Below are positions 23,120 to 45,707 of a stretch of 52,418 nt of DNA, one piece after another. Source of the stretch: Candidatus Moraniibacteriota bacterium. GTDB lineage: Bacteria > Patescibacteriota > Minisyncoccia > Moranbacterales > UBA11712. The stretch is from the NCBI GenBank assembly GCA_030679895.1, contig JAUXSN010000006.1, forward strand, positions 1 through 52,418, read 5' to 3'. Made by a program: the position numbers and the translations under genes. Under the pieces are notes generated by a model. The model was not told the origin of the DNA, made no database searches, and saw only the letters and a list, made by a program, of their open reading frames with translations. Numbering within the stretch: position 1 is the first letter of the stretch; the number at the start of each line of letters is the position of its first letter.

Positions 23120-23141
23120 GCTCTATCAGTAATTAATGATT

Positions 23142-25617: not shown

Positions 25618-25639
25618 GGTTCGAATGATAGCCTATGAT

Positions 25640-26659: not shown

Positions 26660-26680
26660 AATAAATTTTTCCTTCACGCC

Positions 26681-27859: not shown

Positions 27860-29051
27860 TTTTCTTTAATAATTGTCTGAAAATTGCCAATAATTTTTGC
27901 GTTTCTTCTTCTTCACTAAAGTTTTCCAGATCATAATCAATCTTCGAGAGTGGTTCGATATTCTCCAGAATACTTTTTAGATCGCCAAAATTATCCATAT
28001 ACAAGCCCTTTTCTTTCAGCCTCGCTCGATTAAATTCATTTTCAAAACAAATTATCGGCAGACCGGACGCCATCAGATTCATCAATTTTCCGCTTGATTC
28101 CGTACTGCCGCTTTTAGGATCAATCGCCGCATCGGCCAATGCCAAAAAATGCGGCAGAGAGAAATATTTCACTTTTCCGGCGAAACAGACAGAATCTTCG
28201 AGATTGTTTTCAGCAATATATTTTTTGTATTTATCCTCGTCTTCCCCGAACCCGCCGAGCAATAACTTCCAACTCTTTTTCAAGGTTTGACCTTGAGGAA
28301 TTTCCCGGCGAACAGCCGGGAAAGGGAAAGGTCGAACCTTAGAAAAAGATTCCAATAACTCTCCCACTCCCTTATTATCGCTCAATCCGCCGATATAGAC
28401 CAGCAACCGACTGTCCCCCGCCCATTCTTTTATTTTTTCGATTTTTTCCGCTTCGTCTTTAGATAATTTCGGCGAATTATGAAATAAATCCACATCAATT
28501 CCGTCTTTTATAATTTGGACATCGGATGTCCAAATTATAACATTTTCACTGCTAATCACTATTTTGTCAGCCCAATTGATGACTACGCGCGAAAACCAGA
28601 CAAAAAATTTCTGCGCCAGACTGTTTTTCTTGTTATAACTTCGGAATTCTTCTTCAAGATCCCCTTGCAAATCAAAAACGATCGGAATTTTTGAAAAAGA
28701 TAATTTTTTGGCCAGATACCCGATTGCCAATCCTTCATAAAGATGCGCGTGAATCGCGTCCGGATGAAAATTTATAATCTCCCGCCGGACCAAAAAAAGA
28801 AGTTTGAGATCTAGCCAGATTTTTCCCCACGAAAATCCGGGAGATGTTTTTTTGTAGCTTTTCGCACCTTTGATCCTTACGATATCCAAACCTTCAGTAT
28901 TTTCGCCAATATGATACGTACAAAGGCGCACCTCTGCGCCCAGTTTTTGCAAGTATTTCGCTTCATTGTATATCCGCATATGCCCGCCCCGGTCGGAAAA
29001 AAAAGGCGTGGCCGCTATTGTGAGGATTTTCAATGCTTTTTTACCTAACAT
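27822..29051 (-). CDS. Glycosyltransferase family 4 carrying several palindromic inserts
   Basis: A 409-residue GT4. Seen: LTIAATPFFSDRGGHMRIYNEAKYL, HAHLYEGLAIGYLAKKL, LLVYIGGLSDNKGVGELLESF, WKLLLGGFGED and the donor site SGKLMNLMASGLPIICF, a shortened EX7E region. Two palindromes are translated: 28282-28340 gives KVRPFPFPAVRREIPQGQTL between GT-B elements that usually adjoin, and 28508-28540 gives IIWTSDVQII. The start ATG at 29051 lies in a third palindrome; a TTG at about 29030 (LKILTIAATP) is the start the family alignment would predict. Activity may survive because the inserts fall in surface loops; this is inference. Confidence 0.88.
   Translation of the reverse strand: MLGKKALKILTIAATPFFSDRGGHMRIYNEAKYLQKLGAEVRLCTYHIGENTEGLDIVRIKGAKSYKKTSPGFSWGKIWLDLKLLFLVRREIINFHPDAIHAHLYEGLAIGYLAKKLSFSKIPIVFDLQGDLEEEFRSYNKKNSLAQKFFVWFSRVVINWADKIVISSENVIIWTSDVQIIKDGIDVDLFHNSPKLSKDEAEKIEKIKEWAGDSRLLVYIGGLSDNKGVGELLESFSKVRPFPFPAVRREIPQGQTLKKSWKLLLGGFGEDEDKYKKYIAENNLEDSVCFAGKVKYFSLPHFLALADAAIDPKSGSTESSGKLMNLMASGLPIICFENEFNRARLKEKGLYMDNFGDLKSILENIEPLSKIDYDLENFSEEEETQKLLAIFRQLLKKNENTSHKNRKSA
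28282..28340. repeat. 59-bp palindromic element, copy B (translated)
   Basis: Same length and borders as copy A (AAGGTTTGACC...AACCTT), with central stem CCCGGC/GCCGGG where copy A has CCCGAC/GTCGGG. The outer 13-base arms pair completely with one G-U. It is open in five of six frames; only plus frame 1 has a stop (AAG GTT TGA). Here the minus strand is read through and adds about 20 residues to a GT4. Confidence 0.9.
28508..28540. repeat. 33-bp palindrome of the ACATYGRATGT family (translated)
   Basis: TTATAATTTGGACATC (28508-28523), one central G, then its exact reverse complement (28525-28540). The core ACATCGGATGT is the same as in the element at 29043-29087. Exactly 11 codons long, it is read in frame in the GT4 gene. 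Confidence 0.85.
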
Positions 29052-29087
29052 CCGATGTTAGGACGCTCCTAACATCGGATGTTAGGT
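29043..29087. repeat. 45-bp nested palindrome spanning a gene junction
   Basis: ACCTAACATCCGATGTTAGGA minus its last base repeats as a palindrome in each arm; the arms (29043-29063 and 29067-29087) are perfect 21-base inverted copies around CGC. It covers the start codon of the GT4 (29049-29051) and the first base of the GT2 stop codon (29087-29089). Confidence 0.9.
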
Positions 29088-30034
29088 TAATTTTCTATAA
29101 TCTCTTTTATCTTATAATTCATCTTCCCTTGCGTTTTGTAGTAGTTTTTGACGGCGATATCAGCCAAGAGACCGAAAATGAAGAGCTGAATTCCCATAAG
29201 AACCATAAAAACGGCAATAAGCGGCCATATCTTGTTTGACATCGGAACAGCATAATATATCCGCGCGATGATCAAGGCCAAACCGACAAGCATTCCAAAA
29301 GAAAAAATAATGAGCCCCCCCGCGCCAAAAAGATGCAAAGGCCGGTTGGCGTATTTTTTCCAAAACCAGACACTGATCATATCAACAAAACCTTTCACCG
29401 CGCGTTTCCAGCTGTATTTTGTCACGCCGAATCTGCGCGGATGATGGCTGACCGGAATTTCCGCGATCCTGAATCCCTGCACTTTGAGAAGCGCCGGTAT
29501 GAAACGGTGCATTTCACCGTATAAGTCCAGATCATCGAAGCATACACGCTTGAAAACCTTGAGACTGCATCCGCTGTCGTGAATCCCATCATCGATGAGA
29601 ATCTTCCGCAAAACATTCGCGCCGCGGGAAAAAAACTTTTTCATGAGACTATCCCGGCGTTTCACCCGCCATCCGGATACGACATCAAAGCCTTCGTCCA
29701 TTTTTTCAAGAAGCAGTCTGATATCCGCCGGATCATTCTGAAGATCACCGTCCATCGTGATGATGACTTCACCGCTTGAATTCTTGATCCCCGCGTCAAA
29801 AGCCGCTGTCTGGCCGAAATTCTTGCGGAAAGTAATCAGTTTCAGCGGATTCAGCTTTCGGCAAATCTCGTTTGTCTTATCAATACTCCCATCATCAATA
29901 AAAATAATTTCAAAAGATTTGCCAAGCGCCCTCAAAGCCTCGACAATTTTTTTGTGCAATTCCTCAACATTTCCTTCTTCATTTAAAAGCGGAACAATGA
30001 CGGAAAGATATGATTTTGGACTGGATTTATTCAT
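29087..30034 (-). CDS. Polyprenyl-phosphate glycosyltransferase, GtrB/ArnC-like GT2
   Basis: A 315-residue membrane-bound GT2. The catalytic domain has LSVIVPLLNEEGNVEEL, IFIDDGSIDKT, FGQTAAFDAGI, MDGDLQNDP and VVSGWRVKRRD. It ends with two membrane spans (LIIFSFGMLVGLALIIARIYY, IWPLIAVFMVLMGIQLFIFGLLAD), the GtrB arrangement. It should charge a polyprenyl phosphate with a sugar for the GT-C enzymes of this run. It is the first gene of the minus-strand glycan cluster. The promoter would place the transcript start on or beside the ATG. Confidence 0.94.
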   Translation of the reverse strand: MNKSSPKSYLSVIVPLLNEEGNVEELHKKIVEALRALGKSFEIIFIDDGSIDKTNEICRKLNPLKLITFRKNFGQTAAFDAGIKNSSGEVIITMDGDLQNDPADIRLLLEKMDEGFDVVSGWRVKRRDSLMKKFFSRGANVLRKILIDDGIHDSGCSLKVFKRVCFDDLDLYGEMHRFIPALLKVQGFRIAEIPVSHHPRRFGVTKYSWKRAVKGFVDMISVWFWKKYANRPLHLFGAGGLIIFSFGMLVGLALIIARIYYAVPMSNKIWPLIAVFMVLMGIQLFIFGLLADIAVKNYYKTQGKMNYKIKEIIEN

Positions 30035-30040
30035 AGATTT

Positions 30041-30069
30041 ATGGTACCGTAAAGTTGGGATTTTAGCAA
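30041..30069 (-). promoter_or_regulatory. Promoter of the minus-strand glycan cluster
   Basis: Minus strand TTGCTA (30064-30069), a 17-base spacer and TACCAT (30041-30046). The expected start, near 30034, coincides with the ATG, so the mRNA would be leaderless. Confidence 0.5.
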
Positions 30070-30081
30070 AAAATATCTTTG

Positions 30082-30120
30082 AAAAAATTGAGGGGCGAAA
30101 GCGTCTGTGACGTCTCGCCC
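30082..30120 (-). terminator. Intrinsic terminator of the 144-residue gene
   Basis: Read on the minus strand: GGGCGA (30115-30120), a loop, TCGCCC (30093-30098), then CTCAATTTTTTC. It ends the 30128 gene 8 bases after its stop. Confidence 0.65.
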
Positions 30121-30127
30121 ATGGTTG

Positions 30128-30562
30128 CTACTCCTTGCTCAGCCTCTCATCCGCAGCCTGACGAAGATGGATGGTTTCAAGAGTCGCGCCCATGATTAGT
30201 GCATCATGAGTCAACTCGATAGCTAGACACTTGCCATTGACCGGAAAATGGAAGCGCCTCTGTCTGGTCTTGTCTTTTATTTCGGGACTTGCAGCGGTCA
30301 CAAGGTTGAGTTCGGTGTCCCTCTTAAAGAAGACGCAAGCCTCCACCTCGCTAGTACTATGGTGAAGATAGACATTCACCATAACAAGCGGATAAACATC
30401 CAGGTGCCCCCGCAACCCTTTTCCGGAAGAATCTTCATACCGCTCTACCATGAAACCTTTCCCAGAGAGAGCGTCGTAGATTTCCCCGAGAAATTTTTCC
30501 CGGTAGCTTGAGGGGGTGCCAGGAGGCCGATTTAATGGGTCGATACCATATTTCACCTTCAT
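30128..30562 (-). CDS. Conserved-looking hypothetical protein, 144 residues
   Basis: I do not recognise this protein. It is soluble, with no membrane span, an early SYREKFLGEIYDALSGKGF segment and a likely beta-rich middle (LDVYPLVMVNVYLHHSTSEVEACVFF). It seems a real gene: GGGAGGA lies 8 bases before the ATG, a TTGACA/TAAAAT promoter lies upstream and a terminator follows. Its base composition is more G+C-rich than the flanking glycan genes. It is unlike them in both composition and translation signal, so it may be a separate, highly expressed or acquired gene. Confidence 0.7.
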   Translation of the reverse strand: MKVKYGIDPLNRPPGTPSSYREKFLGEIYDALSGKGFMVERYEDSSGKGLRGHLDVYPLVMVNVYLHHSTSEVEACVFFKRDTELNLVTAASPEIKDKTRQRRFHFPVNGKCLAIELTHDALIMGATLETIHLRQAADERLSKE

Positions 30563-30612
30563 GCCGAATGTCCTCCCTTCTCCAAGCTTAATATTTTTAT
30601 TTTTGAAGTTTT

Positions 30613-30641
30613 ATTTTATAATATTAATCTTTGTTTGTCAA
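30613..30641 (-). promoter_or_regulatory. Near-consensus promoter of the 144-residue gene
   Basis: Minus strand TTGACA (30636-30641), a 17-base spacer and TAAAAT (30613-30618). A plus-strand TATAAT (30617-30622) overlaps it and may serve the divergent gene at 30649, though its -35 box is poor. Confidence 0.7.
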
Positions 30642-30648
30642 CAAGGGA

Positions 30649-32403
30649 ATGAGCGAATCGCTTTCTCACAATAATAATGCTAATAATGCCTTATACAAAG
30701 GTTTTTGGAGGCTTGTTATATTTCTTATCAGCTTCGGCTGGCTAGTTCTTGTTTTTTCGGCCATTGGGCTGTTTAACTTCACTTCCATAATCGTTTCCCT
30801 GATAGCTTCACTAATTTTTGCCGTGCTTATATATAATAGATTAGACATAAAAATTAAAGATAAAAAGGCATTTATTCTTGTTATTCTCATTTCTCTTCTC
30901 GCCAGTTTCGCCACCTGCTATTTCGCCACGCCGACCGTCTTTGGCGGACGCGACCAGGGAGCGATTGCCACCGCTGCGATTTATCTCGCGAAAAACCACC
31001 AGCTCAAATTTTCCACTCCCGTTTCGGAAAATCTTTTTCAGAAATATGGCCCCGGAAAGGCTTTGAATTATCCGGGCTTTGACTATACCAAGGATGGAAA
31101 ACTCGTTTCCCGTTTTCCGGTCGCTTATACCTCATATCTCGCCGCGGCTTATAATCTTTTTGGACTCAAAGGAATCCAGTACGCGAATTTGCCTTTTTTA
31201 CTTCTTTTCCTTGTCATTTTTTGGCTAATTTTGCGGGAGTTTTTTTCCGCTGGGGTTTCTTTTCCGGGCTTCTTGCTGGCCGCCTCTTTTTTCCCTTTTC
31301 TCTGGTTTGCGAAATATGCCCTAACGGAAACATATATGCTTTTTCTGGTCTGGACGGGAATTTTGTTGTTGATTTATTATTTAAAAGAAAAGAAAGATTT
31401 ATTTTTATACTTGGCGCTTGCCAGTTTCGGCCTTTCAGCTCTTGCCAGGATCGAAGGAATAATTTTTCTACTTCTCGCAGTCGGCTATGTTCACTTTCTC
31501 GCGAACAAAAAAATAATTTTGAAGCCCAAATATCATAAATATCTCTTTATTTTCATCGTTTTTTTCATATTTCTTTATACTTTTCTCAATTTTCCGGCGC
31601 TTTTCGACAGCCTGAAGAATATTGCCAAGGAATTTATACCAGGCTCTGGAAAAGCATCCGGATCTTCTGCTAATACTTACTCGCGTCTTCTTACAATCTT
31701 CCTGAATTATAATATTCTGGTTTATGTTGCCGGCGGCCTTTTGGCCATAATCTATTTCATCTATAATTTCCGAAAAAATTTTCTCAAAAAAGAATTTATC
31801 CCTCTTATCATACTTTTTCCGGCTCTCGTTTATCTCTTTCTCCCCCTTATTTCCCTTGATGATCCCTGGATGTTGCGCCGCTACGTCTTCGCCGTTTTTC
31901 CCCTTTTGATTTTTTACAGCCTTTACGCGCTGGAGAAATTCTTTTATCACAAAACTTTTCTTTATCTCGCTCTCACCATTCTTGTTGTCGCGAACGGTTT
32001 CATCAGCGGCATTTTTATCAAAACATCGGAGAATAAAGACCTTTTGCCCCAGATCAAGGAAATTTCCCAGAATTTCGGACCCAATGACCTGATTTTGGTT
32101 GATCGCCTGGCGACCGGAAGCGGGTGGTCCCTCATGAGCGAACCGTTGAGTTCGATATATGGCAAACAGGCTGTTTATTTTTTTAACGCGGATGATTTGA
32201 AAGCAATCAATCAGCCGCGATACGATAATATTTATCTCATCACTCCTTTCACGGAGGAAAAAGAGTGGTATTCCGACACAAGCAAAACTATGAACAAAGT
32301 AGTCCTTGTGAATAATAATTACCTGGAATCCCAGCCGGGGATTTTCAAGGTAGCTGCTGATATTCAACAAATAACATATACTGTGATTTGGAAAATTAAA
32401 TAA
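30649..32403 (+). CDS. GT39/ArnT-like membrane glycosyltransferase
   Basis: A protein of about 584 residues with 11-13 spans. After the second or third span, TVFGGRDQGAIATAAIYLAKNH has the acidic residue and position expected of GT-C enzymes; FPVAYTSYLAAAYNLFGLKG follows, as in the PMT_2 group. The C-terminal 130 residues (from NKDLLPQIKEISQNFGPNDL) are soluble and extracytoplasmic. The track uses TTG 30631, but ATG 30649 is more likely. It opens a plus-strand run with the epimerase and GT2. Sugar and acceptor unknown. Confidence 0.86.
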   Translation: MSESLSHNNNANNALYKGFWRLVIFLISFGWLVLVFSAIGLFNFTSIIVSLIASLIFAVLIYNRLDIKIKDKKAFILVILISLLASFATCYFATPTVFGGRDQGAIATAAIYLAKNHQLKFSTPVSENLFQKYGPGKALNYPGFDYTKDGKLVSRFPVAYTSYLAAAYNLFGLKGIQYANLPFLLLFLVIFWLILREFFSAGVSFPGFLLAASFFPFLWFAKYALTETYMLFLVWTGILLLIYYLKEKKDLFLYLALASFGLSALARIEGIIFLLLAVGYVHFLANKKIILKPKYHKYLFIFIVFFIFLYTFLNFPALFDSLKNIAKEFIPGSGKASGSSANTYSRLLTIFLNYNILVYVAGGLLAIIYFIYNFRKNFLKKEFIPLIILFPALVYLFLPLISLDDPWMLRRYVFAVFPLLIFYSLYALEKFFYHKTFLYLALTILVVANGFISGIFIKTSENKDLLPQIKEISQNFGPNDLILVDRLATGSGWSLMSEPLSSIYGKQAVYFFNADDLKAINQPRYDNIYLITPFTEEKEWYSDTSKTMNKVVLVNNNYLESQPGIFKVAADIQQITYTVIWKIK

Positions 32404-32410
32404 AAATATT

Positions 32411-32482
32411 ATGAAAATACTTGTCACCGGAGGAGCCGGATTCACCCCTCACCACCCGATAATTAAACTCGCGCAACTATGA
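32411..32482 (+). pseudogene. Remnant of an NAD-dependent epimerase N-terminus
   Basis: A 23-codon ORF reads MKILVTGGAGF and then departs into TPHHPIIKLAQL before a stop that overlaps the next ATG. The first 11 residues are the Rossmann glycine motif of an extended SDR epimerase, the same motif that opens the intact gene 68 bases downstream. From 32444 the sequence is an inverted copy of the glycine-motif region of that intact gene. It appears to be a broken or duplicated gene start, not a functional peptide. Confidence 0.65.
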
Positions 32483-32524
32483 AAAAAATATCTCAAAAAA
32501 TACTCGTGACGGGTGGTGCGGGGT
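32444..32524. repeat. Inverted duplication flanking the epimerase start
   Basis: ACCCCTCACCACCCG (32444-32458) and CGGGTGGTGCGGGGT (32510-32524) pair at 14 of 15 positions. The 51-base loop holds the start codon of the intact epimerase (32479). Confidence 0.7.
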
Positions 32525-33423
32525 TCATCGGCTCCCATCTCGTCGATGCCCTGATCAAAAAGAATCACAAAGTTTTTGTGATCGATAATTTGAGCACCGG
32601 TTTTCGAAAAAACATCAATCCGAAGGCGAAATTCCACAAAATCGACCTGACCAATCACAAAAAAATCGAAAATATTCTGAAAATCGAAAAACCGGAAGTT
32701 ATTTTCCACTTGGCCGCCCAAATCGACGTTCGAAAATCCGTCGCCGATCCGGTCTTCGACGCGAACAGCAATATTTTGGCCAGCATCAACCTGATCAAGC
32801 TGGCTCATCAGTATAAAGTCAAAAAAATTATCTTCTCCTCAACCGGCGGAGCCATTTACGGCGACACGAAAAATCGGCCAACCGGCGAAAAAGAATCCGA
32901 ATGGCCTCTTTCTCCTTACGGAATAGCGAAACTGACCATAGACAAATTCCTGAACTATTACCGCGAAGTCCACGGATTGAATTTCATCTCTCTTCGCTAC
33001 GGCAACGTTTACGGCCCGCGTCAAAATCCCCATGGAGAAGCGGGAGTGGTGGCAATATTTTTCAATAAAATGCTAAAAGGCGCGCAGCCGGTTATAAATG
33101 GCAACGGCAAACAAACCCGGGATTATGTTTATGCCGGCGATGTGGTGAACGCCAATCTTCTCGCTCTCAAACATTTCAAAAAAACGGGAATTTATAACGT
33201 CGGCGCCGGAAAAGAAACGGATGTCAATCAATTATTTCGGGAGATCAATCGGCATTTCGGCGATAAATTCAAAGAAGCCCACGGCCCGGCCAAAATCGGC
33301 GAACAAAAAACCAGCTGTTTGAGTTTTGCGAAAATAAAAAGAGAACTGGACTGGACACCGGAGACGAACTTTCAAGACGGAATCAAACAGACTTTTGAGT
33401 GGTTTAGGGAAAACAGTAAATAA
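32479..33423 (+). CDS. NAD-dependent sugar epimerase/dehydratase (extended SDR, GalE-like)
   Basis: A 314-residue enzyme with the NAD loop VTGGAGFIGSHLVDAL, VIDNLSTG, the catalytic SSTGGAIYGD and SPYGIAKL (Tyr-x3-Lys), and the late RYGNVYGPRQNP. It acts on a nucleotide sugar in the cytoplasm, probably as a UDP-glucose 4-epimerase-like enzyme; substrate is not decided by sequence. It is followed by a GT2 13 bases later. The region upstream contains a broken copy of its own N-terminus. Confidence 0.94.
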   Translation: MKKISQKILVTGGAGFIGSHLVDALIKKNHKVFVIDNLSTGFRKNINPKAKFHKIDLTNHKKIENILKIEKPEVIFHLAAQIDVRKSVADPVFDANSNILASINLIKLAHQYKVKKIIFSSTGGAIYGDTKNRPTGEKESEWPLSPYGIAKLTIDKFLNYYREVHGLNFISLRYGNVYGPRQNPHGEAGVVAIFFNKMLKGAQPVINGNGKQTRDYVYAGDVVNANLLALKHFKKTGIYNVGAGKETDVNQLFREINRHFGDKFKEAHGPAKIGEQKTSCLSFAKIKRELDWTPETNFQDGIKQTFEWFRENSK

Positions 33424-33435
33424 TTTAACCACGGA

Positions 33436-34155
33436 ATGGGTAAATTTTCCAAAATTAGTATTGTTATTCCAGTTTTTGACGAGGAAAAAACTTTGGAAAA
33501 AATCATCGCCGCGGTGGAAAAAGCAGATGTTTTTGATCTCGAAAAGGAAATTGTTCTCGTGGACGACCGGAGCCGGGACAATTCCCGGGAAATTCTGAAA
33601 CATTATGAGGAAAAGCACAAAGTTCTGTATCATGAAAAAAACCAGGGCAAAGGAGCGGCGCTCCGAACCGGCTTCAAAAGCGCGACCGGAGATATAATTC
33701 TGATTCAGGACGCCGATCTCGAATACGATCCGCAAGAATATTGTGAAATCTTGAAACCCATTTTGGACGGCAAAGCTGATGTTGTTTTCAGTTCCCGTTT
33801 TTTGGGCCATCGCCCTCATCGGGTGCTTTACTACTGGCATTTTCTGGGAAACAAATTTTTGACCGGCCTTTCGAATGCGCTGACGAACTTCAATCTCACG
33901 GATATGGAATCGGGCTACAAGGTTTTCACGAAAGAAGTTTTGGACCGGATCGCGCCTAAACTGAAATCAAAAAGATTCGGCATCGAACCGGAACTCGTCG
34001 CAAGAACGGCCAAGCTCGCCCGCCGGAACAAATGCCGGGTTTATGAAGTCGGCGTTTCCTATTCGGGGCGGACATATAAAGAAGGCAAAAAAATAACTTG
34101 GAAAGACGGCGCCGAAGCCATTTGGTGCATAATTTGGTATAATCTTTTCCGATAA
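33436..34155 (+). CDS. Glycosyltransferase family 2, Dpm1-like
   Basis: A 239-residue soluble GT-A enzyme with ISIVIPVFDEEKTLEKII, LVDDRSRDNS, NQGKGAALRTGF, IQDADLEYDP and VVFSSRFLG, the pattern of polyprenyl-phosphate mannose or glucose synthases. DMESGYKVFTKEVL also fits that group. There is no membrane span, so it is the single-domain form. Its stop is two bases from the stop of the convergent GT2 at 34158, leaving no room for a terminator. Confidence 0.94.
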   Translation: MGKFSKISIVIPVFDEEKTLEKIIAAVEKADVFDLEKEIVLVDDRSRDNSREILKHYEEKHKVLYHEKNQGKGAALRTGFKSATGDIILIQDADLEYDPQEYCEILKPILDGKADVVFSSRFLGHRPHRVLYYWHFLGNKFLTGLSNALTNFNLTDMESGYKVFTKEVLDRIAPKLKSKRFGIEPELVARTAKLARRNKCRVYEVGVSYSGRTYKEGKKITWKDGAEAIWCIIWYNLFR

Positions 34156-36057: not shown

Positions 36058-37470
36058 TTATTTGCGAAGCAGAGAAGGAAACAGTTTTTTCAGATAAGAA
36101 CGCGTCTTGCTGAAATTTTTATCCGCGGAAATTAATTCTTTCAGATCTTTCATGACATGCCCTATATCCGAAGAACAGCTTTCAAAATTCTTCAAGCGAA
36201 AAACATTGTCTATATCTGTCTTGATTAAATTTTTCTTTTCTTTTTCCGTAAATAATTCTTCTATAATCTTCTCCCCTTTCTTCAGCCCAATAATCCTTAT
36301 TTCCACATCTTTTTGAGGTAGTAAATTCTTGCTCCGGACGAGACAGAGCGCGACCTCGTAAATGTTTATCAGCTCTCCCATATCCAAAATAAATATTTCT
36401 CCCCGGTTGTCCCGGGCGGCGGAGTTTATAACTAGTTGAGCCGCCTCCCGAATTGACATAAAGAATCTCCGCACTTTTTTGTGAGTAACGGTAACATATT
36501 TATGATCTCTAATCTGACGCTCAAACAGCGGCAGCACTGATCCATGAGAATTGATAACATTCCCGAATCGCACAACGTTGAATTTTGTATGGCTCCTTCC
36601 AAGACCCTTAATATAATATTCGGCTATTTTTTTTGTCGCTCCCATCACGCTGGTCGGATTGACCACTTTATCAGTCGAAATAAATATGAAATTCCTGACG
36701 CGGTTTTTTATGGCCGTGTCAACGACATTCTTTGTGCCAACGATATTATTCATCACCGCCTCATCAATATTCTCTTCCATCAGATAAACGTGCTTATAGG
36801 CCGCCGCGTGAAATATAATGTCCGGTTTTTCCTTTTTTATAAGATTATCCAGCTTCTTAAGGTTCAGGATCGAACCAATTACTAGCCTGTATTTTTTTGC
36901 CGAAATGCCTCTTTCTTTGAGATCCTGATCCAGATTAAATGTGAGGTATTCCGAATTATCAAAAACAATCACTTTCTTCACGTCAAGGTCTATCAATTGT
37001 CTGACAATTTCCGAACCAATAGAACCGGCTCCGCCAGTTATCAGCACGGTTTTATTTTTATAAAATTTCTTTAGCGTTTCCACATTTTTCTTAAGGAAGG
37101 GACGACCCAAAAAGTCTTCCGCGTCTAAATCTTTCACTTCGCTATATTTTACGTCGTCCTGGCGGATGATCCTCTGGCTGCGCGGAACAATTCTCACGGG
37201 TATAGTATTATCAATATTCTTCAGTAAAATTTTGCGAATTTGTTCTCCGCTTGCCGAAGGAATCGCAATGACAATTTCATCCACTTGAAAAAGATCATTG
37301 ATTTTCGGCAAATCGTCGATACCGCCCAAAACTGATTCGGACTTGTTTTTTTCGCGATCGTCTATGAAACCTATGATTTCATGTTCGGGGTAGTTCTTTT
37401 CGATGTCATTCTTCAATAATTTGCCGGCGATTCCGGCTCCGACAATGATAATTTTTTTAGCTTCTTTCAT
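36058..37470 (-). CDS. CapD/FlaA1-like nucleotide-sugar 4,6-dehydratase, soluble form
   Basis: A 470-residue protein. The N-terminal Rossmann domain (IIIVGAGIAGKLLKNDI, about 1-100) resembles the CoA-binding-like domain of CapD proteins. The catalytic SDR domain (about 125-400) has VLITGGAGSIGSEIVRQL, FHAAAYKHV and the family's STDKVVNPTSVMGATKK with methionine replacing the usual catalytic tyrosine, as in FlaA1/PseB and PglF relatives. Full-length CapD proteins usually carry about four N-terminal spans; none is present here. The likely product is a 4-keto-6-deoxy sugar nucleotide, perhaps from UDP-GlcNAc. Confidence 0.92.
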   Translation of the reverse strand: MKEAKKIIIVGAGIAGKLLKNDIEKNYPEHEIIGFIDDREKNKSESVLGGIDDLPKINDLFQVDEIVIAIPSASGEQIRKILLKNIDNTIPVRIVPRSQRIIRQDDVKYSEVKDLDAEDFLGRPFLKKNVETLKKFYKNKTVLITGGAGSIGSEIVRQLIDLDVKKVIVFDNSEYLTFNLDQDLKERGISAKKYRLVIGSILNLKKLDNLIKKEKPDIIFHAAAYKHVYLMEENIDEAVMNNIVGTKNVVDTAIKNRVRNFIFISTDKVVNPTSVMGATKKIAEYYIKGLGRSHTKFNVVRFGNVINSHGSVLPLFERQIRDHKYVTVTHKKVRRFFMSIREAAQLVINSAARDNRGEIFILDMGELINIYEVALCLVRSKNLLPQKDVEIRIIGLKKGEKIIEELFTEKEKKNLIKTDIDNVFRLKNFESCSSDIGHVMKDLKELISADKNFSKTRSYLKKLFPSLLRK

Positions 37471-38309
37471 AAGGATAAATATTTGTTTATAAGAGATAAG
37501 TTATTTTTATAAAATTGGTATGTTTCAGCTAAGCCAACTTCGAGCGATGTCAAAGGCACATTTTTCAGCAACTTATTATTTGCGGCAGAAATATTCAGGT
37601 ATTCTTTTCGGTTCTCGCTGCTTATCTTTAGTTTTTCCTTAATTATTTTATTTTCAATAATATCGATCAAATCCTTTATAGTAGTCAATCCGCCGCTTCC
37701 TATGTCGGTTGCAAGATATGAATTATTCTCAATCGCGTATTTGACGAATTTTCCCGCATCGCTAGCATATAGAAAATCCCGGCAGACTTTGGGATCATTT
37801 ATCTCCGTCGCCTTTCCGTTTAAATGATTGATAAAAATATTAGCCACCAGACCTCCCTGCCGATATGGCAATTGGTATAACCCGTACACATTAAACAGTC
37901 TGAAAATGGTCAAATTTATTCCATTGGACCGGCAATGATCCAAATAGAATTCCTCGAATGATATTTTTCTTTTAGCGTAATCCGAATCCGGATTAGCATA
38001 AATGGCAGCCGAGGAAAAAATAATCAAATGAGCACCCCTTTTTATTCCAACATTTTCAACTAATTTCATTTCCCCGGTCGCAAAATCAGCAACATTGACT
38101 TGATTATCAATTAGATGGATAAAGACTTCATAACTTCCCCTGATCTTTTTCTGGTAGGGATTTGCCTCGAGAAATATATCTTTTCTTTCAGGAAAAATGG
38201 ATCGCTTAATACCCATCGAGAAGCATTCGTATTGCCCGGCGAGTGTTTGATTGATGTTTCTTCCAATAAATCCTTCTCCTCCCAAAACTAATATTTTTCG
38301 TTTATCCAT
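37467..38309 (-). CDS. NAD-dependent epimerase/reductase (extended SDR)
   Basis: A 280-residue protein starting RKILVLGGEGFIGRNINQTL, with IFSSAAIYANPDSDYAKRK (Ser and Tyr-x3-Lys) and RLFNVYGLYQLPYRQGGL. It is shorter than typical GalE. It overlaps the CapD-like gene by four bases, so it may act next on the 4-keto sugar as an epimerase or reductase; this is inference from order. It is the first gene of the operon, divergent from the GtrB-like gene at 38465. Confidence 0.9.
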   Translation of the reverse strand: MDKRKILVLGGEGFIGRNINQTLAGQYECFSMGIKRSIFPERKDIFLEANPYQKKIRGSYEVFIHLIDNQVNVADFATGEMKLVENVGIKRGAHLIIFSSAAIYANPDSDYAKRKISFEEFYLDHCRSNGINLTIFRLFNVYGLYQLPYRQGGLVANIFINHLNGKATEINDPKVCRDFLYASDAGKFVKYAIENNSYLATDIGSGGLTTIKDLIDIIENKIIKEKLKISSENRKEYLNISAANNKLLKNVPLTSLEVGLAETYQFYKNNLSLINKYLSL

Positions 38310-38464: not shown

Positions 38465-39418
38465 ATGGATAGAAAACAGCTAATTTCCGTTGTTCTTCCT
38501 GTTTATAATGAAGAAAAAAATGTTTCCCTTGTGGCAGAACAGCTTCTAGGAATAGCCAAACAAATCAGCAATCGCTACGACATGGAGATTATTTTCGTGG
38601 ATGACGGCAGCCGTGACAATTCATTCGAAGAATTAATCAGGCTGTGCGAACAAAATTCTATGCTAAAAGCCTTGAGTTTCTCCAGAAACTTCGGGCATCA
38701 GATCGCGCTAACTGCCGGTTTTGATTATGCCAAAGGAGACGCGATTATTTGCATGGATTCCGATCTTCAGCATCCGCCTGAACTTATCCCAATAATGCTA
38801 AAAAAATGGGAGGAAGGAAATAATATTGTATACACAATCCGCAAAGATAATTCGAATATTTCTTTTGTGAAACGCTATTGTGATATATTTTTCTATTGGC
38901 TTATCAATAAAGTCTCTAATACGCCCATAAATCGCAACGCGGCCGATTATCGGTTAATCAGTCGGATCGCCCTAGATGAATTCAATAAATTAAGAGAAAG
39001 GGATCGATTCCTGCGAGGCATGATAAATTGGGTCGGCTTCAAAAATACAGCCATTGAATATGAAGTCGGCAAGAGAATTCACGGAAAAAGCAGCTATTCT
39101 ATGTGGAAGCTCGTGAAATTTGCCGCCAATGCCGTCACTTCTTTTTCTGGAGCGCCTTTGCGCACTTCTTTTGTCGCCGGAAGCGCCATTGCCGGCTTTG
39201 CCTTTATTTATGGAGTATATCTAGTTATTCAGAATTTATTTTTCGGAGCTAAATTTATTCCCGGCTGGCCATCGCTTATTATTAGCGTCTTGTTTTTGGG
39301 AGGAGTGCAGCTAATTTCCGTGGGTATCCTGGGAGAATATATTTATAGGATTTTTAATGAAGTAAAAAAGCGACCGCTCTATATCATTGATAAAACAATT
39401 AACGTGAACAAACAGTGA
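38465..39418 (+). CDS. Polyprenyl-phosphate glycosyltransferase, GtrB/ArnC-like GT2
   Basis: A 317-residue membrane GT2: ISVVLPVYNEEKNVSLVAEQ, IIFVDDGSRDNS, FSRNFGHQIALTAGFDYA, MDSDLQHPPEL and RIHGKSSYSMWKL, ending with two spans (AIAGFAFIYGVYLVIQNLFF, SLIISVLFLGGVQLISVGIL) and the EYIYRIFNEVKKRPLY tail. This is a classic GtrB/ArnC relative that links a sugar to undecaprenyl phosphate. It begins a tightly spaced run with a methyltransferase, an SMR-like protein and membrane GT-C enzymes. Confidence 0.95.
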   Translation: MDRKQLISVVLPVYNEEKNVSLVAEQLLGIAKQISNRYDMEIIFVDDGSRDNSFEELIRLCEQNSMLKALSFSRNFGHQIALTAGFDYAKGDAIICMDSDLQHPPELIPIMLKKWEEGNNIVYTIRKDNSNISFVKRYCDIFFYWLINKVSNTPINRNAADYRLISRIALDEFNKLRERDRFLRGMINWVGFKNTAIEYEVGKRIHGKSSYSMWKLVKFAANAVTSFSGAPLRTSFVAGSAIAGFAFIYGVYLVIQNLFFGAKFIPGWPSLIISVLFLGGVQLISVGILGEYIYRIFNEVKKRPLYIIDKTINVNKQ

Positions 39419-40236
39419 AATGCATTATTTGCGGAAATTCCGACCACCAGAAGCTATTCGAAGGCATAGTAAAATGTTCCGGTTGCGGATTGGTATTTTT
39501 TGATCAGGATTTAAGCGAGGATGAGATAAAAAAACTGTACAAAGAAGGATATTTCAAGGGAGAAGAATACTGCGATTACGAGGAAGATAAAAATATTTTG
39601 CAGAAAAACTTTACATCCCGCCTGAAAGATATTCTTCGATATAAAAAACAAGGCAATCTTTTTGAAATTGGCAGCGCTTATGGATATTTTCTCGAAAAGG
39701 CAAAAAAATATTTTGATGTTGAAGGTATCGACATAACCGAAAAACCCACCGCCTTCGCCAGAAATAAACTTGGCTTGAATGTCCATACTGGAAACTACCT
39801 GGATTTTGAAATTTCAGAAAAAAAAGACCTCTTTTGCATGTGGGATACCATTGAACATCTTCGGGAACCTCAAAAATTCATTGAAAAAATATCAAGAGAC
39901 ATAAAAACAGGCGGTTATTTATTCCTGACTACCGGCGACATCGGGAGCCTTGTGCCTAAAATGCAAGGTCGAAAATGGCGCTTAATCCATCCGCCCACCC
40001 ATCTTTATTATTTTTCTCGAGACACGATTAAGAAGCTTCTAGAGCAAAAAGGATTTGAAGTGCTGGAGATAAAGCATCCAGGCTTTCACCGGAGCTTGAG
40101 CCAGATAATTTACGCCCTCCTCTATCTCAAGCGCCGAAAAAATTCGGAAAAAGCGAAAAAAATACTGAAATTAATCGACTTCCCCTTATATCTCAATACT
40201 TTTGATATCATGCATGTAATCGCGCGAAAAAAATGA
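39415..40236 (+). CDS. Class I SAM methyltransferase with N-terminal zinc ribbon
   Basis: A 273-residue protein. The first 30 residues hold two CxxC pairs (CIICG and CSGCG), a small zinc ribbon seen in many sugar-related methyltransferases. The SAM-binding motif is NLFEIGSAYGYFLEKAKKYF, followed by FCMWDTIEHLREPQKFI and GGYLFLTTGD. The start is GTG 39415, overlapping the previous stop (GTGA). The family (methyltransferase 23/11 type) often modifies deoxysugars; the target here is unknown. Confidence 0.9.
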   Translation: MKCIICGNSDHQKLFEGIVKCSGCGLVFFDQDLSEDEIKKLYKEGYFKGEEYCDYEEDKNILQKNFTSRLKDILRYKKQGNLFEIGSAYGYFLEKAKKYFDVEGIDITEKPTAFARNKLGLNVHTGNYLDFEISEKKDLFCMWDTIEHLREPQKFIEKISRDIKTGGYLFLTTGDIGSLVPKMQGRKWRLIHPPTHLYYFSRDTIKKLLEQKGFEVLEIKHPGFHRSLSQIIYALLYLKRRKNSEKAKKILKLIDFPLYLNTFDIMHVIARKK

Positions 40237-40586
40237 TTATTTTTATTGCCATCGCCATTTATTTAGCCTGCAGTACCACCGGACTTTTACTCCTTAAGAG
40301 CAGTCTCGCCCATCAGTCAGTGAAATCACTTTCAGATTTTTTGCAGATGTGGCTGAATGTAAAATTTGTGGCTGGATTTTTTTTGTACGCGGCCAGCTTT
40401 CTCACTTGGCTTTTTCTTCTTAATAAAAAAGACTTAAGCGTTATTTTTCCGATCGTAATCGGCCTAAGCTATATAACGGTCTTCGCCGCCGCGCTGGTTG
40501 TGCTTCATGAGGAGGCAAGCACTGCGAAGATAATCGGGGCGGTTCTTATCGGAGTCGGAATTCTATTTATAACGATTCAGAAATAA
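40233..40586 (+). CDS. SMR/EamA-like small membrane protein, possible lipid-sugar flippase subunit
   Basis: A 117-residue protein with four spans and the ending ASTAKIIGAVLIGVGILFITIQ typical of SMR-like proteins, with the HEEAS loop before the last span. The glutamate of span 1 that drug-exporting SMR proteins need is replaced (IYLACSTTGLLLLKSSL), so drug export is unlikely. ArnE/ArnF-type proteins flip undecaprenyl-phosphate-linked sugars. Its place four bases into the methyltransferase stop and next to a GtrB-like gene fits that role by inference. Confidence 0.8.
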   Translation: MIIFIAIAIYLACSTTGLLLLKSSLAHQSVKSLSDFLQMWLNVKFVAGFFLYAASFLTWLFLLNKKDLSVIFPIVIGLSYITVFAAALVVLHEEASTAKIIGAVLIGVGILFITIQK

Positions 40587-40588
40587 AT

Positions 40589-42613
40589 ATGCCGGATAAA
40601 TACATATCCTTTTTTACAAAAAGAAAAACACTTTTAACGCTAGCCGCCAATGCTGTTTTGTTCTTGACCCTGATATTTATAATTTACGGAAAAGCCATTC
40701 TGAATATCAACCATTACTACATCGGAACCGAAGGCGACAGTTCCTATTACATCTGGATTGCCAAATGGTTTTCACAATTCCTGTCTCATCCCAATACTCT
40801 CCACGTTACGAATGTGTATTATCCCATTGGGATTGATATCTCCGCCGGTTGGGAGGGATCGATCCTATTTTATGTCGGCGGATTTTTTAATTCATTTTTT
40901 TCCGAAGCGGCTTCTTATAACTTAGTCATTCTTTTCCCCCTGCTTCTGGATTGGGCAGCCTCATATTTTGTTTTTAACAAGTTTTCCAAACGACTTTTCA
41001 TTTCGGGACTCTTCGCAACCTTATTTTGCACCAGCACTTTTTTCATAGCCCGCAGCCTAGGGCATCCCACCTATCTTTATTTTTTTCATATTCCCCTGCT
41101 CTTTTATTTCTTGCAGCACGATTGGCTGAAAGGAATTAATTTAAAAAAGGCATTACTCCTTATTGTGGTTTACGTTTTGATATCGATAACGTCTTGGTAC
41201 TATTTTATTTTTGCGATAATCATTACCGCAATCTATCTGATAAGTTTCGCCATCAAAAATGGTAAATCGGATTTTAAAATTTACAAAAAAATAGCCCTAA
41301 CTTATGCGGGAGTTTTGATCGCCGTGATAGTTTTTAATTTCCCGATGTTTAAAGCGTTCTTTTGGGGAAGTTCCTATTTCTTCCCGTATCCTTTCAGAAT
41401 GAACAACGCCGGAATAAACCAGCAACTTTCCATGCACGCGATCGATTATCTCAAGCCTTTCTTCCTCAACACAATATATTATAAGTTAAGCAGCTGGGTA
41501 AACGGCTACGCGGAAAATAATCTTTTCCCGGGAATATCTTATTTCTTTTTGCTGCCGATTTCTCTTTTTTACATTTTGAAGCACGGGAAATATAAAAACT
41601 ATTTTATTTTTGGAATTTTAGCTGTTTTATTTTTCATTCTTTCTTTGGGATATAATTCTCCTTTACCTCTGTACCGATGGTTGAATTCGCTCCCCATCGC
41701 CTCCACCTTGCACGCCCCGCCCAGATTTGGCATAATCGTTATTTTTGTCGGTTGGCTGATAATTGCCAGTGCTATTAAACACGCCAAGGGAAAAGCTATT
41801 ACCGCTGTTTTATTGATTCTAATTTTCATTCAATTTTTCGAGTCTGCCAACTTTAGACCGGTCTTCGAGAATTTTGATAATCTTAGTATTCTAAAGAGCA
41901 TTGAACCAAACAAACAGTCCCCCGTCCTCGAATTACCTATGCGCTCGCAGGCCAGTGAAGCCCTCCTCACACCCGCGCTTTCGGGCCGGGCAGTTTTTTC
42001 CGGCTATCCCCAACACACGACTTATTCCCCCCAATTGGATTATTATGATTTGAATAATGTTTTGGATAGTTTAGACAAACAAGAAAAAACCGGTCCAGAT
42101 GTGGCTGCTGAACTAACTGCGGCGGAATCAGCAGCTTATCTTAAGTGGAAATTTGGAGTTGAGGATGTTGTTTGCAACAAGCAATTGACTCTGTCGCCAA
42201 AGGCTTCTGAAATATTGAAATATTTCTCGCTTATAAAAGAAAATGACAACTATGCTATTTATAGATTCGAGCAAATTCCAAATCTCGAGAATGATCCGGA
42301 TGTAAAAATCGTCACCGGAAAGGGGATAGGCCAATTGATCAATGGCGTGCGAACCATCGCGGAAAAAGCCGAGCTGGATATCCTGAATTTTAGCGATCAG
42401 CCGCAGAAATTGAAATTTCATTTTGTTGCCGCGGGAATCACCCCCAAAACGAATTATGCAATTGACGGCAACACACTGAAAAAAGACGTGGTGATTTCAG
42501 CTGAACCCGGACTTGGGACGATTACTATCACATCAGACAAAAAGTGCATCATTTCCGGCGCAGATTGCATAACCGGAACAATATCTGAAATTAATGTCCA
42601 GGGTATTAAATAA
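40589..42613 (+). CDS. Large multispan membrane protein, putative GT-C glycosyltransferase
   Basis: A 674-residue protein with about 12 spans in the first 430 residues and a soluble C-terminal part. After the first span, YIGTEGDSSYYIWIAKWFSQFL carries acids where GT-C enzymes have their catalytic residue. STLHAPPRFGIIVIFVGWLI corresponds to the NNIRTVGRLF region of the 740-residue protein at 20897, so they are likely homologues. It directly follows the SMR-like gene (2 bases) and could use the lipid-linked sugar made by the GtrB-like enzyme. Function is inference. Confidence 0.75.
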   Translation: MPDKYISFFTKRKTLLTLAANAVLFLTLIFIIYGKAILNINHYYIGTEGDSSYYIWIAKWFSQFLSHPNTLHVTNVYYPIGIDISAGWEGSILFYVGGFFNSFFSEAASYNLVILFPLLLDWAASYFVFNKFSKRLFISGLFATLFCTSTFFIARSLGHPTYLYFFHIPLLFYFLQHDWLKGINLKKALLLIVVYVLISITSWYYFIFAIIITAIYLISFAIKNGKSDFKIYKKIALTYAGVLIAVIVFNFPMFKAFFWGSSYFFPYPFRMNNAGINQQLSMHAIDYLKPFFLNTIYYKLSSWVNGYAENNLFPGISYFFLLPISLFYILKHGKYKNYFIFGILAVLFFILSLGYNSPLPLYRWLNSLPIASTLHAPPRFGIIVIFVGWLIIASAIKHAKGKAITAVLLILIFIQFFESANFRPVFENFDNLSILKSIEPNKQSPVLELPMRSQASEALLTPALSGRAVFSGYPQHTTYSPQLDYYDLNNVLDSLDKQEKTGPDVAAELTAAESAAYLKWKFGVEDVVCNKQLTLSPKASEILKYFSLIKENDNYAIYRFEQIPNLENDPDVKIVTGKGIGQLINGVRTIAEKAELDILNFSDQPQKLKFHFVAAGITPKTNYAIDGNTLKKDVVISAEPGLGTITITSDKKCIISGADCITGTISEINVQGIK

Positions 42614-42683
42614 CAAATTATTTCTTATAAAATAATTATTGCCTTAATATTATGAGGTCGTATTTATTTTGCCATAACGATCT

Positions 42684-44159
42684 ATGCAAAAAAATAAGTT
42701 TATTATTTTATTCGGGCTTATCACGATATTAGCAATAATTGCAACAAACCTATGGGTAACTGATTCAAAAAATTATTTTTTGGCGGATGATTATAACTAT
42801 TTGCAAATATCACAGACTTCTTCTTTTTCACAAATTTTTCACTTATTGCCCGATAGTAGATACAATGATCGGCCTGTCGGATCTGTTCTTATAAAAATAA
42901 TGTACCAATTGTTTGGATTGCATTATCGACTATATCACATTGTATTATTAATAATCCATCTATTAAATTCATTTCTTGTCTATCTCTTAGTGAGACAAAT
43001 ACTCATGGATATTAATTTACAAGAAAGCAAATATTTTCCAATTTTAGCAGCTGCGATATTTGGAATATGGCCCAAGAGTTTACATACAGTTTCTTGGATC
43101 GCGGCAATTTTCGACATTTTTGGAGCAACACTTTTTTTAATAGTTTTAAATTTATTCATTTATAGAAAAAAAATAAAATGGAAGTATTTTGTTCAGGGAT
43201 TAATGATTATATTTTTTTTCCTAGCTCTGCGCACAAAAGAAATGACCATTATTGCCCCAACACTGATTCTATTGTATGAACTTTTTCTGCACCTCTATAG
43301 AAACCCACTCTCTTTAAGAAACCTAGGGAATTTCAGGCCAAGCGGAATCAGCATTATTTTATTTCTAATCTCAATTGGTTATTTTCTCTATCTAAATTTC
43401 ATGACAAATCAGGCTTTCACACTCAATCCAAATGAACAATATTATTTTACATATAATCCAATAGTTATAGTAAAAAACTTTATCTTGTATTGGTACTTAT
43501 ATTTCGACTTTAGCAAGGTCGAAGGAGCACAGGACGTATTCGTCGGTTTCAATGTAATTTCTGCGACAATCTCATTTCTAACACTCGCATCTCTGATGAT
43601 ATGGTCGCTATTTAAGGCGATTAGGAAAAATTATATCCTGCTCTTTATATTTGCATCGTTATTTGTCTCTCTTCTACCAATTTTACCGATGAAAAACTTC
43701 CAGCACATATTATACTTATACATGCCTTCCATATTTTTCTCATTATTGCTCGCTACCGTTATCATTCAACGAATGAATAGGTATGCGAAAAGACAAATCT
43801 CGCAATTTATTATTTTGCTTTTTGTTTTGGGGGGCTTGTATTCGCTGACGCTTACTGATTCTGTCCAGTTTCGAAGAAATTTTAGATTAATGATGGGAGA
43901 AAACAATCTGACAACAGCCAATGATTTATCCAAGCTGCCAAAACCAAGTAAGAATTCAACTATATATGTTAATAATATTTCCGACGGCCTTTCTTCTATA
44001 AATATAGGTCCGGGGAAAATAAATAACATTATTTTCAATGATCAGAGCTTAAGGACAATCCTCAACCCAAACTCAATCGATAAAAGTAAGCCGTATATGA
44101 TCCTGGAATATACCGGAAAATCGGGAGAGATCAAGCTCCTGGAAAAGTCTTCTATATAA
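42684..44159 (+). CDS. Multispan membrane protein, putative GT-C glycosyltransferase, A+T-rich
   Basis: A 491-residue protein with about ten spans. After the first span the motif NYFLADDYNYLQIS has paired aspartates as in GT-C enzymes, and FHLLPDSRYNDRPVGSVLIK follows. The C-terminal 90 residues are soluble. The gene is distinctly A+T-rich: the line at 43141-43200 has about 11 G+C in 60 bases, against about 40 % in most neighbours. This, and use of rarer codons such as ATA and TTA, suggest recent acquisition. It lies 70 bases after the previous gene and 15 before the next. Confidence 0.75.
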   Translation: MQKNKFIILFGLITILAIIATNLWVTDSKNYFLADDYNYLQISQTSSFSQIFHLLPDSRYNDRPVGSVLIKIMYQLFGLHYRLYHIVLLIIHLLNSFLVYLLVRQILMDINLQESKYFPILAAAIFGIWPKSLHTVSWIAAIFDIFGATLFLIVLNLFIYRKKIKWKYFVQGLMIIFFFLALRTKEMTIIAPTLILLYELFLHLYRNPLSLRNLGNFRPSGISIILFLISIGYFLYLNFMTNQAFTLNPNEQYYFTYNPIVIVKNFILYWYLYFDFSKVEGAQDVFVGFNVISATISFLTLASLMIWSLFKAIRKNYILLFIFASLFVSLLPILPMKNFQHILYLYMPSIFFSLLLATVIIQRMNRYAKRQISQFIILLFVLGGLYSLTLTDSVQFRRNFRLMMGENNLTTANDLSKLPKPSKNSTIYVNNISDGLSSINIGPGKINNIIFNDQSLRTILNPNSIDKSKPYMILEYTGKSGEIKLLEKSSI

Positions 44160-44174
44160 TTTTTTCAAAACGCT

Positions 44175-45707
44175 ATGTCTGAAAATAGAAAAACAACGAC
44201 ACTAAAAAAAATTGATTTTGCTGTTGCCATCATTCTCTCTGCAATGTTCATTGGCTTTCTCATCCTGTCATCCACCCGCGCTCCTCTCAACTTCGATGCT
44301 TCATACAATATGCTTCCCTACCAAAGCCTGTCTAAAGGAACAGGATTCCAATATATATACGACAGCAAAAGCGTCCCTTTTAATCCGGCAGTGACCACTG
44401 GTCCGGAATTATATTTGCCGACTCTTATGATTTGGAAATTGATCGGCCATACTGATTATTTTGTCGCGACTTACGTCTTGATCGCTTATTACGCAATGTT
44501 TTTCGCTTTTCTTTTATTTTATGTATTAAAGGAAAAACCTTATAAAACTCTTTCGCTTCTCTTTTTTCTCATCCTCATCTTCAGCAATAAACAACTGTTC
44601 GACAATCGTTCACTAATTGATCCTTTGGGTGAGATAGTTTCGTCTTTTATGGTCTTCGCCGGAGCCTATCTTCTTTATAAGAAAAAAACAATCCCGTCCT
44701 TCATTCTCTTTGGTCTGGCACTGGACACTAAAGCCAATATCATTATTGCCTTGTTGCCAGCTCTCGCGATCTATATTTTTCTTGAGTATCTGTGGCCGAT
44801 TATAAAAGAAAAGGAATATCAAACCGCAGCCAAGACATCTCTCCGATGGATTTTTCTGTCGCTGATAATATTTACCCCTTCCCTTTTCACTACCCGCGTT
44901 TTGCCCGAACTTACTTTAAACACCAAAGAAAAAATAATATTTCACGAAGCCCAACAGGATTGGAACAACCACCGAAACGATCGCGGATTAGGACAACTCA
45001 CCACCTTCCTAAAGCATCCTAATCGGCATACGTTAAAAACTTTTTGGAACCAGACCGCAGCCAAGATTCCAACTTTAAAATCTTATTTTAACGGCAGTCT
45101 GTTTTTGATTATATTATTTTATACCTCCCTTCTGTTTTTAATTTCATATACTTTTCGAAAAAAACATTTTTCTTTTTTGCTTTTTGTTTTTTCTTTCTTC
45201 TTTTCGCTTTGGTGGCTTTTTGTGACCACCGATGCTTGGTGGAGATACTTTCTGCTTGTGGAATGGATGTATATATTGGGAATTGTCGCCATAGCGCCAA
45301 TGCTATTTCGAAAACAAAATCTGCGAAATCCATCATCGCTATTTATTTTCTTGAGCTTTCTAATCGTATTTTTACCGCAATTTTCCACTGCGTCAATAAA
45401 TCGAAGTCTGGATCCGTCCGAAAAAAATTATTTCACGCAAATGCAGAAATTGATCGAACCGATCGACCAAAATAATCTTTTTACTTATGGATGGTTCCAG
45501 TGCCCCCAACTTATGTTGCAGACAGGAAAACGCTTTCAAGACTATACTGATCAAGGAAGTGTCAAGGAAGCATCGCAGGAAGGAGAACCTATTTATCTTT
45601 TGACCGCGATTGAGAATACAATTGTCCAGCCAGAAATGGATGAAGTCTTAAAAAGCTTTGATCTGGTCAAAGCTTTTGGATATAACGGCCTTTATAAACT
45701 TAGATAG
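44175..45707 (+). CDS. Multispan membrane protein, GT39-like
   Basis: A 510-residue protein with about 10-11 spans. SSTRAPLNFDASYNMLPYQS after the first span holds an aspartate in the GT-C position, and TGPELYLPTLMIWKLIGHTD resembles the PMT_2 group's second conserved segment. The soluble C-terminus is short (about 90 residues, ending FGYNGLYKLR). It is last in the plus-strand module and convergent with the methyltransferase at 45746. A TTTTGAC/GTCAAAA repeat (45708-45731) at the end may be a weak terminator. Confidence 0.78.
   Translation: MSENRKTTTLKKIDFAVAIILSAMFIGFLILSSTRAPLNFDASYNMLPYQSLSKGTGFQYIYDSKSVPFNPAVTTGPELYLPTLMIWKLIGHTDYFVATYVLIAYYAMFFAFLLFYVLKEKPYKTLSLLFFLILIFSNKQLFDNRSLIDPLGEIVSSFMVFAGAYLLYKKKTIPSFILFGLALDTKANIIIALLPALAIYIFLEYLWPIIKEKEYQTAAKTSLRWIFLSLIIFTPSLFTTRVLPELTLNTKEKIIFHEAQQDWNNHRNDRGLGQLTTFLKHPNRHTLKTFWNQTAAKIPTLKSYFNGSLFLIILFYTSLLFLISYTFRKKHFSFLLFVFSFFFSLWWLFVTTDAWWRYFLLVEWMYILGIVAIAPMLFRKQNLRNPSSLFIFLSFLIVFLPQFSTASINRSLDPSEKNYFTQMQKLIEPIDQNNLFTYGWFQCPQLMLQTGKRFQDYTDQGSVKEASQEGEPIYLLTAIENTIVQPEMDEVLKSFDLVKAFGYNGLYKLR

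Follow-up and report, generated by a model that had tools for sequence, protein, structure and literature searches.

The window analysed here, a stretch of 52,418 nucleotides from a Candidatus Moraniibacteriota bacterium, spans the entire contig G000:C45. The genome it comes from measures 1.03 Mb, is 98% complete and lies below the size expected of a typical free-living bacterium. On the forward strand of the window lies a run of six genes that probably encodes a cassette by which a sugar is attached on the outer side of the membrane. It starts with a GtrB-like polyprenyl-phosphate glycosyltransferase with a glycosyltransferase family 2 (GT2) domain and two C-terminal transmembrane helices (38465-39418), followed by a class I S-adenosylmethionine (SAM) methyltransferase with a GTG start codon and an N-terminal Cys4 zinc ribbon (39415-40236; Methyltransf_23, 3e-19) and by a 117-aa four-helix protein with the fold of the small multidrug resistance (SMR) proteins, the proposed flippase for the polyprenyl-phosphate sugar (40233-40586). 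Three polytopic proteins are encoded downstream: a 674-aa protein with a soluble C-terminal part, a candidate GT-C glycosyltransferase that is possibly of the YfhO type (40589-42613), a 491-aa protein with an acidic DD motif in its first outer loop (42684-44159), and a 510-aa protein (44175-45707). GtrB and methyltransferase genes overlap by 4 bp (GTGA), as do methyltransferase and SMR genes (ATGA), and the SMR stop codon is separated from the 674-aa gene by 2 bp; gaps of 70 bp and 15 bp precede the 491-aa and 510-aa genes. An earlier note on this DNA, which proposed a lipid-linked sugar module, had stated that the first four genes overlap or nearly touch, and its coordinates proved exact. Due to the two 4-bp overlaps and the 2-bp gap, these four genes very probably form one transcript.

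The identity of the first gene product, GtrB-like also in the earlier note, was confirmed by a PDB sequence comparison, in which residues 7-309 matched the solved GtrB sll0501 (5ekp) over its full length with an E-value of 2e-76; the solved ArnC (9hwj) was matched with 3e-46. The protein carries the Pfam domain PF00535 (5e-29) and matches the NCBIfam models PgfS (5e-82) and ArnC (9e-57), neither of them reaching its cut-off. In an alignment with seven relatives, the DDG, DxD and RxxGxSxY motifs are retained. Judged by its sequence, the protein is a GtrB-type polyprenyl-phosphate glycosyltransferase, the synthase of Gtr three-component systems. Among 40 loci with a window-type GtrB in the phylum, GtrA is found alongside in 14, and a relative of the methyltransferase in one genome (G680, L161).

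The methyltransferase, treated so far as a side detail of the locus, is indeed located beside GtrB, but the pair of the two turned out to be the most conserved element, and it is also the least explained and the more notable one. When GTDB species genomes were searched with the methyltransferase alignment, blind to GtrB, 42 loci were obtained. In 17 of these a window-type GtrB directly adjoins the methyltransferase relative, and in one (L103, Bacterium 1xD8-48) both are fused in a 716-aa open reading frame (ORF; L103:5690-7840) with a GT2 domain at residues 109-280, a zinc ribbon at 434-464 and Methyltransf_23 at 515-657. According to their record titles, the carriers of the pair represent at least seven further phyla (Bacillota, Pseudomonadota, Cyanobacteria, Acidobacteria, Bacteroidetes, Hydrogenedentota, Rokubacteria and FCPU426), although such titles can be wrong for metagenome bins; the genome G599 is added to these carriers. 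At L099 a GtrII-family enzyme (1.5e-9) precedes the pair, and at L115 methyltransferase, GtrB and SMR genes lie within one stretch. Cysteines C3, C6, C21 and C24 of the methyltransferase are retained in the 57%-identical copy at L083. In viral contigs and plasmids no relatives were found, and the open-access literature searched contains no description of the GtrB-methyltransferase pair or of a three-way exchange of the membrane protein following it. The fusion gene of L103 has a further GtrB and a gene for a polytopic protein as neighbours.

The 117-aa protein is an SMR homologue that is unrelated to GtrA and is not a drug-type SMR. Its best NCBIfam models are ArnF (5e-9; 36.7 bits, cut-off 99) and ArnE (2e-5; 25.0 bits, cut-off 92), ranking above the drug exporter EbrB (0.09), and all three miss their cut-offs. 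The nearest Pfam models, TMEM234 (2e-6) and EamA (7e-4), also fall short, and neither PF00893 (up to an E-value of 1) nor PF04138 (GtrA) was matched. As the PDB sequence search with the protein gave no match, its fold was compared instead. An AlphaFold2 model calculated from five sequences (predicted local distance difference test, pLDDT, 88.6) contains long helices at residues 2-25, 43-65, 68-90 and 97-116, and the top Foldseek matches in the PDB were all EmrE or Gdx-Clo (probability 1.00, TM-scores up to 0.68/0.75), although the E-values were no better than 0.07-0.3. The predicted structure thereby corresponds to the SMR proteins with about 110 residues, four transmembrane helices and an EmrE-like fold. 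The earlier note had described the protein as lacking the drug-pump glutamate, which was verified by the alignment of EmrE Glu14 with Ser14; ArnE also has a serine at this position. In lipid-transporting SMRs the glutamate is often replaced by asparagine, and transport may proceed by facilitated diffusion (PMC9574504), a mode that Ser14 would fit by analogy.

Comparison of profiles with hhalign gave 98.2% (3e-14) for the 117-aa family with Arn, 97.7% (2e-12) with the drug SMRs and 0.14% with GtrA. In a tree of 91 proteins, which rests on few alignment columns, the four references EmrE, Gdx, MdtI and MdtJ group together (99/97), and neither the 117-aa protein nor any of its relatives from a sugar context falls within their clade; the 117-aa protein pairs with the copy in G599 (100/99). 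The clustering with drug exporters, named earlier as an observation that would speak against the module, was therefore not found. No descent from ArnE or ArnF is claimed, because the tree leaves their placement unresolved.

For conserved gene order, the genome contigs were scanned with the single 117-aa sequence, which found nothing, so that the search was carried out with profiles because of the divergence of the family. Of the 384 genomes searched in the class, 57 gave SMR-profile matches, as did 88 of the 380 genomes searched in the phylum; both lists include longer EamA proteins. In addition, 60 further neighbourhoods were read. The order of GtrB, methyltransferase, SMR and polytopic gene, for which the earlier note had suggested looking in other genomes, recurs in G599 (L083; named copy L137), which belongs to a different family and is known only to share the phylum, with identities of 47%, 57% and 49% for the first three proteins. 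As this four-gene order recurs, the gene order of the window is more than chance, and the second finding that the earlier note named as a refutation, an order conserved nowhere, did not materialise either. According to sequence search, the polytopic gene of G599 is not homologous to the 674-aa gene of the window. The loci L009, L041 and L049 show the order GT2, methyltransferase, SMR and polytopic gene with more distant parts, and the polytopic gene after the SMR is a PMT_2 member in L041 (2e-16) and L049 (1e-11). Furthermore, 34 of 57 strong SMR loci have a GT2 gene within two genes on the same strand, against 18% of the unlabelled genes of the same loci, and 20 of 57 have both GT2 and polytopic neighbours (background 4%). 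Because the background was taken within the same loci, the bias towards sugar clusters is partly controlled.

Relatives of the SMR gene also occur in other settings. In two relatives of the window genome, an SMR relative shares its cluster with phosphoribosyl pyrophosphate (PRPP) synthetase and a UbiA-family protein (L008:2878-7378 and L015:2022-7637), to which a HAD phosphatase is added in L008; both clusters look like the pentofuranose donor pathway of Citrobacter and mycobacteria (PMC11127046). The combination of GtrB and SMR with a polytopic gene and a DegT-type aminotransferase-like protein is found repeatedly (L016, L076 and L081), accompanied by a GNAT-like protein in L016 and L081, which suggests an amino-sugar version of the cassette. 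Two closely spaced SMR-like genes are located in sugar clusters at L051:5495-7541 and L057:5951-6686 (directly in tandem in L057) and recall the ArnE/ArnF pairs. A separate SMR-like family of 125-133 aa was detected in L018-L024, L031 and L083:4000-4401, several members of which lie beside GT2 genes, genes for DUF2304-like small transmembrane proteins and large polytopic proteins.

The position after GtrB and methyltransferase is occupied by different membrane proteins. It holds an SMR in the window and in L137, a GtrA (PF04138, 6e-22) in the cyanobacterial metagenome-assembled genome L101, and an LPG_synthase_TM protein (PF03706, 2e-45) in L100 (Arenicella), a family that has been proposed to act as flippases in archaeal glycosylation (PMC5898192). 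The occurrence of three unrelated membrane proteins in one slot suggests interchangeable flippases. An SMR in place of GtrA, as described in the earlier note, thus exists as a natural swap between the window and L101; an SMR flippase is not new in kind, since such flippases are known (ArnE/ArnF) or proposed (Citrobacter ORF14) (PMC9574504, PMC11127046). The GtrB-methyltransferase-SMR operon contains no GtrA, and the only one of the genome is located on another contig (G000:C48:45910-46296, L032). This gene is intact (PF04138, 2e-22; 214-aa open frame with an N-terminal extension) and adjoins a DnaX-like gene, far from any GtrB, an arrangement that is the same in G055 (L029:10680-11132). It may stand outside any Gtr operon, and its location suggests a separate function.

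Searched individually against Pfam and NCBIfam, the three polytopic proteins gave no usable match, and no relatives of the 674-aa and 510-aa proteins were found in 124 genomes of the order. Their relationship to GT-C enzymes was assessed with profiles that were built up from PMT_2 seeds and did not contain the window proteins (leave-one-out). The 510-aa protein matched the PMT_2-type profiles with E-values of 2e-9 and 3e-9 (hhalign 94-95%), and its prediction as a GT-C enzyme is well supported. With 4e-10 for one seed and 0.83 for the other (hhalign 91-94%), the 491-aa protein is a probable GT-C enzyme. For the 674-aa protein, a PMT_2-type match (9e-6, one seed only), a YfhO-type match (0.003) and 64% in hhalign against a YfhO-seeded profile were obtained; folded alone, it gave an unusable model (pLDDT 39). 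Locally shuffled or reversed copies of the polytopic proteins reached at most about 6%, a value determined with the earlier profiles. The previous count of up to three GT-C enzymes is thus solid for the 510-aa protein only and fair for the 491-aa protein. An assignment of the 674-aa protein to the family of the window gene 20897-23119 (hhalign 99.8%) was rejected as circular, as the iterated profile contained the query, and without the query 43% remained. The like circularity for the other two proteins was removed by leaving the queries out.

Taken together, the locus is read as a cassette of the Gtr/Arn type with three components, which adds a sugar outside the membrane in four steps, with a probability of roughly three in four. 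GtrB would transfer a sugar from a nucleotide sugar to polyprenyl phosphate at the inner leaflet, and the methyltransferase would methylate this sugar, either on the lipid or on the nucleotide precursor. The lipid-linked sugar may then be passed to the outer leaflet by the SMR-fold protein, which probably forms an antiparallel homodimer, consistent with a single SMR gene. There, one or more of the GT-C enzymes encoded adjacently would transfer the sugar to a surface acceptor. GtrB, methyltransferase and SMR would form the conserved core and the GT-C enzyme the exchangeable part that determines specificity. Several points weigh against this reading. The full four-gene order occurs at high identity in only one other genome, and the 674-aa protein, encoded directly after the SMR, is a weak GT-C candidate by its profile matches. 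About 12 Flavobacteriales-type loci (L119-L121, L124-L128, L130, L131, L134, L136) hold a methyltransferase relative in one conserved setting without GtrB or other glycosyltransferases, outside any visible sugar cluster; the methyltransferase family is therefore not exclusive to GtrB and has other uses. The GtrA elsewhere in the genome could serve the GtrB of the window, and direct evidence is lacking for the flippases of related three-component systems (PMC11127046).

The closest competing explanation retains a Gtr-type module, but the methyltransferase would modify the nucleotide sugar ahead of GtrB, or else the acceptor glycan, and not the lipid donor. Its probability is judged to be somewhat under one half. 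The methyltransferase lacks membrane segments, the solved structures nearest to it belong to generic SAM methyltransferases and are matched weakly, genes nearby make and modify nucleotide sugars, and, as mentioned, some relatives lie outside sugar clusters; the fusion with GtrB and the repeated adjacency to GtrB, not to dehydratases, on the other hand suggest the substrate or product of GtrB as the target. There is also a precedent in ArnD, which modifies the lipid-linked sugar in the Arn pathway.

Two further explanations concern the small protein. That all GtrB enzymes are served by the genome's GtrA, with the SMR as an accessory subunit, e.g., a stabiliser of GtrB or of a GT-C enzyme, is unlikely: this GtrA is present and intact and other GtrB-like genes of the window have no flippase alongside, but its location by dnaX, as in G055, suggests a separate function, and SMR and GtrA alternate in the slot after GtrB and methyltransferase. 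Very improbable is an SMR metabolite or drug exporter that lies in a sugar operon by chance. Although the fold matches EmrE and Gdx-Clo and the profile similarity to drug SMRs nearly reaches the level of ArnE/ArnF, the exporter was rejected because Glu14, which binds proton and substrate, is missing, the drug and metabolite SMRs form a clade apart, and the gene has a sugar-gene setting. In addition, the genes are translationally overlapped, and the relatives lie beside GT2 and polytopic genes far above background and near a phosphoribosyl-lipid pathway.

From its sequence features, the proposed cassette would work like the Gtr and Arn systems and be a member of neither, because the operon is without GtrA and Arn models are unmatched at cut-off, with the Arn partners missing. 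With Gtr (gtrA-gtrB-gtrX; yfdGHI in E. coli K-12) it shares an operon that combines a synthase of the GtrB type with a small membrane protein of four helices and, as far as predicted, with GT-C-like enzymes, and the non-homologous polytopic partner in G599 resembles the variable last gtr gene after the conserved gtrAB core. It differs in the unrelated SMR-fold protein in the GtrA slot and in the extra methyltransferase between synthase and flippase. The Arn system (ArnC, ArnD, ArnT, ArnE/ArnF) has, as proposed for the cassette, an ArnC-like synthase, a GT-C enzyme, an SMR-type flippase without Glu14 and a sugar-modifying enzyme between synthase and flippase. In the window, however, a methyltransferase is found instead of the ArnD deformylase and one flippase gene instead of the ArnE/ArnF pair, ArnA, ArnB and ArnD are absent from the module genes, and all Arn models are far short of cut-off. 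The pentofuranose system of Citrobacter youngae O1 (PMC11127046) resembles the cassette in ORF14, a four-helix EmrE/ArnE-like candidate flippase that works with a GT-C enzyme, whereas its donor is made from PRPP via a UbiA-family enzyme and not by GtrB; L008 and L015, in which the homologous SMR has PRPP synthetase and UbiA in its vicinity, are closer to it in this respect. CsbB-GtcA-YfhO and related Gram-positive systems (PMC7389260, PMC8035078) combine a GT2 synthase with a large polytopic GT-C enzyme, as proposed here, but their flippase GtcA belongs to the GtrA family; in B. subtilis, gtcA is required for the glycosylation of lipoteichoic acid (PMC7389260). The 674-aa protein may be of the YfhO type found in these systems. 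To our knowledge, no methyltransferase has been described in them.

The GtrB-methyltransferase pair, which occurs once as a fusion, points to a class of sugar donors that are both methylated and lipid-linked. Tentatively, and with slightly less than an even chance, GtrB and the zinc-ribbon methyltransferase could represent a widespread, undescribed three-component branch with a methylated polyprenyl-phosphate-sugar donor and SMR-fold, GtrA or LPG_synthase_TM proteins as interchangeable flippases. Flippase activity of the small proteins of Gtr-type systems is mostly inferred, and the same synthase and modifying enzyme with three membrane proteins in the next slot represent a natural complementation experiment. 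These cassettes predict one job for the three protein families, which is testable with a common substrate. For a small-genome lineage with little-known envelope chemistry, the cassette is a concrete surface-glycan prediction.

Across a divergent intergenic region from the GtrB operon and outside of it, two genes on the reverse strand encode a Polysacc_synt_2 nucleotide-sugar dehydratase (36058-37470; PF02719, 2e-97) and its partner, a short-chain dehydrogenase/reductase (SDR) epimerase/reductase (37467-38309; PF01370, 4e-16). In L008 and L015, homologues of both occur as a pair in the neighbourhood of the SMR gene. The region 20897-34155 of the window holds further polyprenyl-phosphate sugar genes, among them GT2 genes at 23160, 29087 (two transmembrane helices) and 33436. 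Polytopic proteins are encoded there at 20897, with a YfhO-like profile match, and at 23980 and 30631 (weak PMT_2). Several such systems are thus located on the contig.

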